A stretch of DNA of 64,000 nt, from positions 434,001 to 498,000 of the forward strand of contig JAHLEZ010000017.1 of the NCBI GenBank assembly GCA_020726505.1, written 5' to 3'. The notes under the pieces were generated by a model, which saw nothing but the letters and a program-made list of their open reading frames with translations, had not been told where the DNA came from and did not search any database. The translations under genes were made by a program, and so were the position numbers. Shown here in pieces: positions 22,531 to 51,161 of this stretch. Origin of the DNA: Leptodontidium sp. MPI-SDFR-AT-0119 (Eukaryota; Ascomycota; Leotiomycetes; Helotiales; Leptodontidiaceae). Every line of letters begins with the position of its first letter. The stretch's first letter is position 1.

Positions 22531-25500
22531 CTAGTAGTTGAACAAACTCCTATACCCCTCCTCCTCCTCCTTCTCCTCCTCCTCCTCCCGCTTCTTCTGT
22601 TCACATAACTTGGCAATATAGCCTGCAGGATTGTCCTGCAACTTCCTCAGGCGACGAACCCTCAGTTCGCCCTCAAATCGTGCCTTAATCGTCGAAAGCA
22701 GCACTTCCCATTCCGCCCCTGGCGGATCTACCTTCGCCCCCTGCGAGAAAAGTATCTCCGCAGTTTTGGGCTTGTCTCCGGCAATAGCAGCCTGCAATGC
22801 ACTACCAAACCCTCCACCTTTGGCATTAACATCAGCACCTCTGTCGATTAATAGTTGCACAATGCTTTCGTGGCCTTCAAAAGCCGCTTCTTGCAATGCA
22901 GTGCCATATCCTCTACTTTTAGCGTTTATATCGGCACCTCTATCGAGCAAAAGTTGTACGATGTTTTCCTGGTCGTGGAAAGCAGCTACTTGTAATGCAG
23001 TACTATATCGTTCACCTTGGGAGTTTACATCAGTACCTCTGTCGAGTAAGAGTTGCACGATGTTTTTATTACCGCCGTAAGCTGCTACTTGCAAAGCCGC
23101 TCCATACACTCCTCCCTGGGCGTTTACATCGGCACCTTTATCAAGTAAGAGCTGCACGATATTTTCATCGCCGTTAAAAGCTGCTGCTTGCAAAGCCGCT
23201 CCATACTCTCCTCCTTGGGCGTTTACATCGGCACCTTTGTCGAGTAAGAGCTGCACGATGTTTTCATTGCCGTGGTAAGCTGCTGCTTGCAAAGCCGTTC
23301 CATTCTTTCCTCCTTGGGCGTTTACATCAGCACCTCTGTCGAGTAAGAGCTGCACGATATTTTCATTGCCGTAGTAAGCTGCTGCTTGCAAAGCCGCTCC
23401 ATACACTCCTCCCTGGGCGTTTACATCGGCACCTCTGTCGAGTAAGAGCTGCACGATGTTTTCATTGCCGCGGTAAACTGCTGCTTGCAAAGCCGCTCCA
23501 TGCTCTCCTCCTTGGGCGTTTACATCGGCACCTCTGTCGAGTAAGAGCTGCATAATATTTTCATCGCCGTTGAAAGCTGCTGCTTGCAAAGCCGTTCTAT
23601 TCTTTCCTCCTTGGGCGTTTACATCGGCACCTTTGTCGAGTAAGAGCTGCACGATGTTTTCATTGCCGTGGTAAGCTGCTGCTTGCAAAGCCGTTCCATT
23701 CTTTCCTCCTTGGGCGTTTACATCAGCACCTCTGTCGAGTAAGAGCTGCATAATATTTTCATCGCCGTTGAAAGCTGCCACTTGCAAAGCCGTTCCATTC
23801 TTTCCTCCTTGGGCGTTTACATCAGCACCTCTGTCGAGTAAAAGCTGCACGATGCTTCCGTATCTAAAATATGCTGCTGCTTGTAACGCATTATCATCTT
23901 CTCCACCTTTAGCATTTACATCAGCACCTCTATCGAGTAAGAGCTGCACGATGTTTTCATGGCCGCGGAAAGCTGCTTCTTGTAACGCATTGCCGTAACG
24001 TCCCTTATCTGCAACTTCCTGAACGTTATGACCGTTTTTAATGAGCAGTTCAACAAGCTGCAATTGGCCCATCGAAGCAGCATAATAAAGAGGCAAAGCC
24101 AGTTTCCAAACTGGTAGAGAAATTTGTGAAAAGATAGAGTTATGAAGATTTCCGATTCGTACCATGTTAAGCAAAGCTTGCGCACCAGGTTTGAATATTT
24201 GCAAGATGCGATTGGTGGTATGGGCGGCAATATCTGTCTGAGAGAGATGATCGAGATGTCTCGCCCAGTAAGAAGCAGCATATTTCCAAAGTTGGAAGAG
24301 TTTCATTTCCTTCTCAGTGGCCAATATGGTTTTACTTCGATCCAAATGATAAGCGAGACAAGAATCCGTGATGTGGGCGTGCGCATCAATCTCGTGTATC
24401 GAGAATGTCGAGGCTGGGCTTTGTGATATGCGGCTCGAGATTAGATATTCCTTGATGGAGAAGTGGGCCAGCCGAATCTCGACTGCCTCTGTTCCCCTTC
24501 TGGCATTATGACCCATACCATATCTATCTATGTATCTTGGAACTGCTGTAACAAGTCCAGACAAGAATCCCTGTACCTCATCTGCCTTGAATAGCCGATT
24601 TTCTTCGTCGAACGGCACCTCGGCGTTAGGATCTAGGATAAAGATCTCAGCAACTTCTTCTAGAAGGAGGGGCCGGAGCGAGAATGTAAGCCATTTGAGC
24701 ACGCTTGCTACTTGCTGCTGATCTTCATGCTTGACGGATGTCAGCATCCGGTCGTAGGTAGCATCGAGTCCTTGGGGTAGATCTTGGAGAGCCTTTCTAA
24801 TTTTTGCTGCCGCCTTCAGGGGACGAAGAGCGTCAAATTGGCATGAGATGTATTGGAACCTAAATGAAGACATGGTTAGCCAGTAATCACATCCAGGTGC
24901 TGTGAGAATGGCAAGTTGCTTCAACTTACATCCCGTCCGCTTTCTCAATCAAAGAATTTCTCGCCTCGTTCTTGAGATCCATTGGCCAGCTTTGGTAGTC
25001 GTCTGAATTGAATCTCTCATCAATGTAAAGCCCAATGTCGTAGTCTACGTCCTTTTTCTGCAGGCCAAGATCAATATGAAAGAGTCCTGCTGTGGGCCGG
25101 AGCGCTTTTGCAATATCATTTTCTGGACGACTGGTGCATAGTAGATGCAAGTTCTCTGATGCTGCATTGTGAATTCGGCGGATACTACCCAAGAGCTTTA
25201 TTCGTTGCTCACCATCAAAGGGGCACTCATCCAGAGCGTCGAGAACCAGGTAAACGCTCGTGAATCCATGAAGGGTAGAGATGAGTGTCGTCTCGAGTAC
25301 GTCCAAGCCGGGCGTCTGACCGTTGTCCATATACTTTCGGAGCTGTTTGACCCGTTCCGGGGTATCTGGACGATGACAGCACATCTGTTTGATAAGGGAC
25401 GATAACATCTCCCGAGTGCTCTGCTTCCTTGTATCGTTGAAGCTGAAGTAGAAAAACGAAATCACAACTTCCGGGTCATGGCTAAATAGATCTCGGAGAT

Positions 25501-50170: not shown

Positions 50171-50902
50171 AAGAAAAGACAGAGAGAGAAAGATATGGAG
50201 GCGAAATTGGAGATCTTATACTGTACTGTACAAAAGACAAAGACAAGACAAGAGCAGGCTGCAAGGTTGTATGTAGGTTGACGCTGAACACGTTATGCTA
50301 TGGTCTGGAGACCGACCGCGTCGGAGTTAGGAATTTGGCTTTCCCAGCGGACACGCCTAGCGGAGGACCGGCTTTCGGGCCAATGTCAAGAACCGCTCTC
50401 CGTTACAGGCCTACTTACAGCACTCTGGCTTGCGTATATCTTTAACTTTTGGAAGATGTCTGACTCTTTATTGGATGTGTTTTGGGAGGCTTTTCATGCT
50501 TTCCTGTCAGCAGCGTGCAGGGCCAAGTCTACTCGTCATTTGAAGATGCCTAGTTTGGCGAGAGCGAATCCGAAGCTTGATACCCCGGCCTCTAGAAGGA
50601 AGCTCGTGAGAAGCGAAGATAATGAGCTTCGATTCAAATAAGTTTAGTTTGAGACTCAGTAGAGTAACATAACAAGAAATATTGCTCATTAGATAGGAGA
50701 CAAGCACTAGAAGTGATACCGAATACCCCATAACTGCGAGTTCTCCCATCAGACTCCACTGATACCCGTACCTTGCATATATTTGGACGCACTGACCTCT
50801 GCTCTCCGCTATTAACAACTCAACGACTGAAGCTCATATATTTTGAAATAAGCAGAGATTGCGTCACCGTCTTTGCAATGAGCAAGCAAACTTGTTCCGG
50901 TC
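50171..50902. other. Spacer upstream of the tRNA gene
   Basis: Promoter of the minus-strand hydrolase, then a plus-strand open frame (50300-50641) without recognisable relatives. No snoRNA-like boxes noticed. Confidence 0.45.
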
Positions 50903-51135
50903 GGTTCATTGGGTAATTTTGACTTTTTCCCGGCCGATGCACAACAGACAGACTAACGCAAAACAGTGTAATGGTTAGCAGTATGTGAACTATTTGTTTC
51001 AACATAATTTGAAATGTTTCCTAATGTTGCCTCTAGCGTCGGATTCTGATTCCGGAGATATTGGTTCGATTCCTATATGTAAGCTTCCATCGTCCTTCAA
51101 GGTGATAGGCAACTAAGTACAATTAATAGGAACCT
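50903..51135 (+). tRNA. tRNA-Gln(CUG) split by three spliceosomal-type introns
   Basis: Exons 50903..50912, 50967..50980, 51037..51078 and 51130..51135 total exactly 72 nt. Joined, they give acceptor stem GGTTCAT/ATGAACC (7 perfect pairs), D-arm GTGTAATGGTTAGCAC with GG in the loop, anticodon stem TCGGA/TCCGG with loop TTCTGAT (anticodon CTG), a T-arm ATTGG/CCTAT (one T-T mismatch) with loop TTCGATT, and discriminator T, as usual for tRNA-Gln. The intervening segments 50913..50966 (GTAATT, GACTAAC, CAG), 50981..51036 (GTATGT, CCTAAT, CTAG) and 51079..51129 (GTAAGC, AACTAAG, ATAG) are 54, 56 and 51 nt, like ordinary fungal mRNA introns. None is at the canonical 37/38 tRNA-intron site. Pol III B-box GGTTCGATTCC is intact at 51063..51073. 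Assembly is seen in the sequence; splicing is inferred. Confidence 0.88.
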
Positions 51136-51150
51136 TATAAAGGTTGTGCG

Positions 51151-51161
51151 TTTTTTTTTTT
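51151..51161 (+). terminator. T11 run, candidate Pol III terminator of the split tRNA gene
   Basis: Eleven T on the plus strand 15 nt after the last tRNA exon, the place and sequence expected of a Pol III terminator. A T4 and a T5 run also occur inside the first intron (50917-50920, 50924-50928), which could hamper Pol III. Confidence 0.55.

Follow-up and report, generated by a model that had tools for sequence, protein, structure and literature searches.

Introns of nuclear tRNA genes are commonly viewed as the task of the tRNA endonuclease, and the spliceosome usually works on RNA polymerase II transcripts. A short locus in the genome of this fungus raises the question whether a tRNA gene can be interrupted by introns of the spliceosomal kind. 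The locus spans positions 50903-51135 of the window, by which we mean the whole 64,000-nt stretch of DNA that was analysed (C9:434001-498000, in a genome of 77 Mb and 69 contigs). From its sequence and from that of related loci, we consider it probable that it is a tRNA-Gln(CUG) gene with three predicted spliceosomal introns, likely transcribed whole by RNA polymerase III and likely processed by the spliceosome into a tRNA of 72 nt, and that it is one of at least eight such genes.

The exons were placed from the sequence and from the ARAGORN call on the joined exons, and all features of the gene lie on the + strand. Exon 1 (50903..50912) carries nucleotides 1-10 of the tRNA and is followed by intron 1 (50913..50966, 54 nt), which reads GTAATT...ACTAAC...CAG, includes a TTTTT, and has a branch-like motif CTAAC (50953..50957) whose A stands 11 nt from the 3' end. 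Exon 2 (50967..50980; nucleotides 11-24) precedes intron 2 (50981..51036, 56 nt), which reads GTATGT...CCTAAT...CTAG, with the motif CTAAT at 51021..51025 and its A 13 nt from the 3' end. Exon 3 (51037..51078; nucleotides 25-66) holds the anticodon arm with CTG and the T-arm with the B box GGTTCGATTCC; intron 3 (51079..51129, 51 nt) reads GTAAGC...ACTAAG...TAG, with the motif CTAAG at 51113..51117 and its A 14 nt from the 3' end. Exon 4 (51130..51135; nucleotides 67-72) then closes the acceptor stem. The joined 72-mer is called as tRNA-Gln(ctg) by ARAGORN, with a 7-bp acceptor stem, a D-arm, an anticodon arm and the T-loop TTCGATT. Its discriminator is T, a base that it shares with L038 and L042, both Gln(TTG) genes; its T-stem, ATTGG/CCTAT, carries one U-U mismatch. 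The B box is whole, and the A box is broken after nt 10.

The original prediction, according to which removal of three GT-AG segments of 54, 56 and 51 nt leaves a 72-nt tRNA-Gln(CUG), proved exact to the base, in agreement with ARAGORN. We also reproduced the coordinates of the breaks that it had placed after nucleotides 10, 24 and 66, and recovered in all three introns the GT donor, branch-like site and AG that it had described. It makes no mention of the U-U mismatch of the T-stem. Since none of the breaks falls at 37/38, the introns are not of the ordinary tRNA type. Left unspliced, the DNA from 50903 to 51135 gives no tRNA by ARAGORN and none by Rfam at gathering score, and the whole unspliced window gives zero tRNA calls by either program. 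No Rfam family of group I or group II introns was matched at gathering score in the window, and introns of 51-56 nt are too short for either group.

We searched the genome for further tRNA genes of this kind, starting from the B box. The pattern GGTTCGAWYCC occurs at 142 sites, as against 103 for the reversed pattern; 100 of the 142 were listed and 79 stretches around new ones were taken, and a second pattern, in which the B box is combined with a T-run, returned more sites, from which 20 further stretches were added. In each B-box region an intron-tolerant finder cut out one to three GT...AG segments (40-110 nt long and carrying a CTRA-type motif close to the end) and submitted the remainder to ARAGORN. 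For the count, every junction had to be 3 nt or more away from both ends, and loci L001-L055 were set aside. Eight of 136 distinct B-box regions yielded a split tRNA whose acceptor stem has 7 bp, and 27 of the 136 hold an intact tRNA gene. The eight are the Gln(CTG) gene of the window, two Pro(AGG) genes (L074, L183), one His(GTG) gene (L089), one Glu(TTC) gene (L113), two Glu(CTC) genes (L190, L200) and one Leu gene (L124). At the same stringency of seven acceptor pairs, controls gave 3/2720 when the upstream part was shuffled and 0/2720 when both sides were; with at least six pairs, 8/136 real regions compare with 4/2720 in each of the two shuffles. The window gene is therefore not a lone oddity, a view that the seven additional genes rule out, and further split genes may exist beyond the eight.

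Several observations define the limits of this set. GT-AG ends and a CTRA-type motif are requirements of the finder, so these features are partly there by construction in introns that lack a paralog check. The finder also returned false matches at loci with intact genes (L006, L024, L026, L030), where an edge segment was removed and the junction fell at nt 1 or nt 68; these were rejected. We kept L050/L166, L088, L118 and L022, whose fold or anticodon is not clear, out of the class. Two of these, L050/L166 (C2:157628) and L088 (C3:399919), are tRNA-like genes whose anticodon region contains long insertions, a poor match to either intron type; the insertion of L050/L166 can be removed in 1548 registers, 11 of them GT-AG but none with a branch motif. 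If any segment of 40-80 nt may be removed, 32 of the 136 regions give some 7-bp match, mostly at intact genes, and non-GT-AG registers are far commoner, GT-AG making up a small share, as expected with wandering boundaries. Because many registers fold, such free removal does not by itself single out GT-AG. The whole 72-mer, used as a DNA query in the genome, matched only its own exon 3, in a search that is not sensitive. Rfam places at least 46 tRNAs in the genome, a lower bound given that 63 of 2877 candidates were scored and the gene at C1:5546327 was missed.

Curated models of the eight genes contain 12 introns of 49-79 nt, all of them GT-AG, as the finder demanded. Their donors are GTAATT, GTATGT, GTAAGC, GTCAGT, GTATGA, GTAAGC, GTACGT, GTAAGC, GTTTGT, GTGAGC, GTGAGC and GTATGT. 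In 12/12 introns the A of the CTRA motif lies 10-14 nt from the 3' end, a band narrower than the finder allowed: it demanded the presence of the motif with a start anywhere from 8 to 35 nt from the end. For comparison, four mRNA introns that we mapped in the window by protein alignment, in Ndc80 and part of HMG-CoA synthase, measure 52, 50, 63 and 92 nt and have their branch A 12, 11, 15 and 16 nt from the 3' end. (Over 612 residues, the Ndc80 frame shares 99.7% identity with a protein named for Leptodontidium sp. 2 PMI_412, a genus of the Helotiales in the Leotiomycetes, and the window also holds, at 22531-24873, an ankyrin-like protein frame with many repeats that appear near-identical by eye.) The tRNA introns interrupt the acceptor stem after nt 6, the D-arm and its edges after nt 10, 12, 16, 19, 24 and 26, the variable loop, the T-stem, and the tRNA after nt 66. 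The two Glu(CTC) introns share one site (after nt 16) and the two Pro introns another (after nt 26); within neither pair does any local match reach a score of 20. The idea of a single intron copied round the genome is unsupported, as the best local matches among the 12 introns score only 20-24. The introns of the Leu gene are the least secure of the set; the first was placed by hand, since the finder excluded its donor GTTTGT, and ARAGORN reads the anticodon of this gene as TTA.

A test independent of the finder is provided by uninterrupted paralogs. Removal of a 49-nt intron from the Glu(CTC) gene L190, and of a 52-nt intron from L200, leaves a sequence identical over both exons to the uninterrupted gene L193; likewise, once a 60-nt intron is taken out of the His gene L089, what is left equals L044, a His gene with no interruption. 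The breaks fixed in this way can slide by one base, and in 3/3 cases a register exists that is GT-AG and has the branch motif; we estimate that, with even base use, two random registers would offer GT-AG in about 2/256 cases per gene. As a claim about sequence, the original proposal of a tRNA-Gln(CUG) gene with three introns of spliceosomal type holds, and it is strengthened by the seven other genes that carry introns of this type, three of which have been checked by paralogs.

The ordinary introns of the same genome serve as an inner control. Among 35 anticodon-loop introns placed by ARAGORN, 0/35 are GT-AG, even when a shift of 3 is permitted, and 0/35 contain the branch motif. After removal of the GT-AG segments, ARAGORN still predicts an ordinary intron in the anticodon loop for seven of the eight split genes, and two splicing systems would therefore meet on one RNA.

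Signals that could direct transcription surround the genes. We trained a matrix on the sequence upstream of 59 tRNA genes called by ARAGORN, a small number of which are of uncertain identity, with the split genes excluded. It converged on (AT)CAAATAA, a CAAATAA(G)-like element whose best match has a median position 47 nt upstream of the gene. The window gene has a TATA-like element TTGAAATAA at 50843..50851 on the + strand, 60 nt upstream of exon 1, with a matrix score of 10.7 that 0/165 control windows reached. Of the other seven split genes, five have an element within the best 2% of control windows and L074 one within 6%; that of L190 is weak (within 24%), with TATATAAG nearby. Downstream, a run of 11 T (51151..51161, + strand) begins 15 nt past the end of the tRNA and is a candidate RNA polymerase III terminator; both the upstream element and the T-run of the window gene resemble those of other tRNA genes here. 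L089 has no run of four T within 60 nt. Inside the introns, T-runs longer than three are absent from 11 of 12, the exception being the TTTTT in intron 1 of the window gene.

These data fit a scheme in which RNA polymerase III would transcribe the window gene whole, introns included, and the spliceosome would remove the three GT-AG introns from the precursor to leave the 72-nt tRNA; in seven of the eight genes, precursors would in addition pass through the tRNA endonuclease and ligase for the anticodon-loop intron. Transcription by polymerase III, action of the spliceosome and formation of a mature, charged tRNA are what we infer from these sequence features. That the endonuclease and ligase might also excise the off-site introns, as they do the ectopic introns of archaea and Cyanidioschyzon, would have a precedent in two reports, which describe ectopic and multiple introns in those organisms (PMC3978253, PMC4090602). 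We regard this as very improbable, since GT-AG ends and a branch motif occur in all three introns checked by paralogs and in none of the 35 anticodon-loop introns; moreover, a bulge-helix-bulge (a 3-nt bulge, a 4-bp helix and a 3-nt bulge at the junctions) is formed by 0/12 introns of the split genes, in a test of low power that only 3/31 ordinary introns pass and that therefore says little. The usual substrates of the spliceosome, together with the split A box, would sit easily with an RNA polymerase II transcript spliced like an mRNA, whose tRNA-like fold may serve a non-coding RNA, but the upstream elements and T-runs like those of other tRNA genes here, and the 11 of 12 introns free of T-runs longer than three, make this improbable too. 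As for tRNA-like pieces brought together by chance, or a fault in the assembly, one may object that the three segments were chosen after the fact in the original prediction and that GT-AG was built into the finder; the shuffle controls, the exons identical to those of paralogs and the occurrence at eight separate loci reduce this explanation to a negligible chance.

A different doubt concerns the window copy itself: the class may be real and this member decaying, a formerly working gene now poorly expressed or not expressed, whose CUG reading has been taken over by another gene. The T-stem U-U mismatch recurs in 0/54 other distinct tRNA sequences called in the loci examined, and, together with the TTTTT within intron 1, it suggests a weak or declining output of the copy. 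The view that the window holds the only Gln(CUG) gene is ruled out by L059 (C1:5546327), a Gln(CTG) gene with an ordinary intron, in which both sides of one anticodon-stem pair differ from the Gln(TTG) gene L042; because both sides have changed, the stem is kept. L059 resembles a Gln(TTG) gene with a switched anticodon plus the matching stem change. The original prediction had envisaged an intact tRNA-Gln(CUG) gene elsewhere that would supply all CUG tRNA and leave the window copy a relic, and this is borne out only in part, by the ordinary-intron gene at C1:5546327 and an odd Gln(CTG)-like sequence at C23:2338851. The latter (L022, C23:2338851-2338935) has the acceptor stem CGCCCCT/AGGGGCG and a discriminator C. 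Against decay stand the 7-bp acceptor pairing maintained across three introns, the splice signals and B box that remain whole, the good upstream element and the T11 run, and we hold a decaying copy to be possible but unlikely. The class is nonetheless firmer than its member in the window, because of the T-stem mismatch, the TTTTT in intron 1, the split A box and the second Gln(CTG) gene.

The preferred reading, spliceosomal introns in tRNA genes, has relatives among known systems. In fission yeast, U6 snRNA is described as being made by polymerase III and carrying an intron of the mRNA type (PMC10484740), which gives a precedent for such introns in polymerase III transcripts. Like it, the genes described here are small RNA genes of the polymerase III kind that contain GT-AG introns; unlike it, they encode tRNAs, are interrupted by as many as three such introns each, and in seven of eight cases are predicted to hold a tRNA-type intron as well. 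In the present genome we found two U6-like places. L189 (C13:138532-138689) scores 40.8 bits in Rfam, under the cut-off of 44, and by eye reads best as a U6 gene with two GT-AG introns, the Rfam alignment having an insertion at the second; TATAAG lies upstream and T-runs downstream. L188 (C13:117239-117337), an uninterrupted U6-like copy of 70.9 bits with an unusual 5' stem-loop, is perhaps a pseudogene.

Fungal U3 snoRNA genes, according to one study, have spliceosomal introns with normal signals, and intron-bearing and intronless paralogs occur in one genome (PMC5832005). The likeness lies in a structured non-coding RNA, normal splice signals and paralogs with and without intron; by that same account, U3 introns almost all sit in one 5' stem-loop, whereas here they are spread over the tRNA. 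Two papers (PMC4090602, PMC3978253) report introns off 37/38, up to three per gene, in tRNA genes of archaea, nucleomorphs and algae including Cyanidioschyzon, bulge-helix-bulge signals in archaea and C. merolae, and insertions of 3-24 nt in Guillardia nucleomorph tRNAs whose mode of removal is given as not known. The split genes share with these, so far as described there, the off-37/38 position and the number of up to three introns in one gene, but their introns are 49-79 nt long, end in GT-AG and contain a branch motif. Introns of the ordinary eukaryotic 37/38 kind are present here and predicted in seven of the eight split genes themselves, yet have neither of the last two features. We recognised no report of spliceosomal introns in tRNA genes in the open-access literature searched, a scope that excludes subscription papers and preprints; two papers that deal with splice sites and with non-canonical splicing (PMC11782384, PMC13149111) do not mention one in their available text. 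A review states that eukaryotic tRNA genes with insertions elsewhere are supposed to be pseudogenes (PMC4090602).

The sequence evidence makes it likely that this fungus uses the spliceosome in making a group of its tRNAs, those of at least eight nuclear genes, and that most of their precursors would need two unrelated machines, spliceosome and tRNA endonuclease, to become functional. If this is true, the spliceosome can act on pre-tRNAs, and the supply of some tRNAs would be tied to it; real tRNA genes would escape standard finders. There would then be a further class of tRNA intron, with introns invading polymerase III genes, and the pairs of paralogs with and without intron would allow a direct test of intron gain in a gene transcribed by polymerase III.
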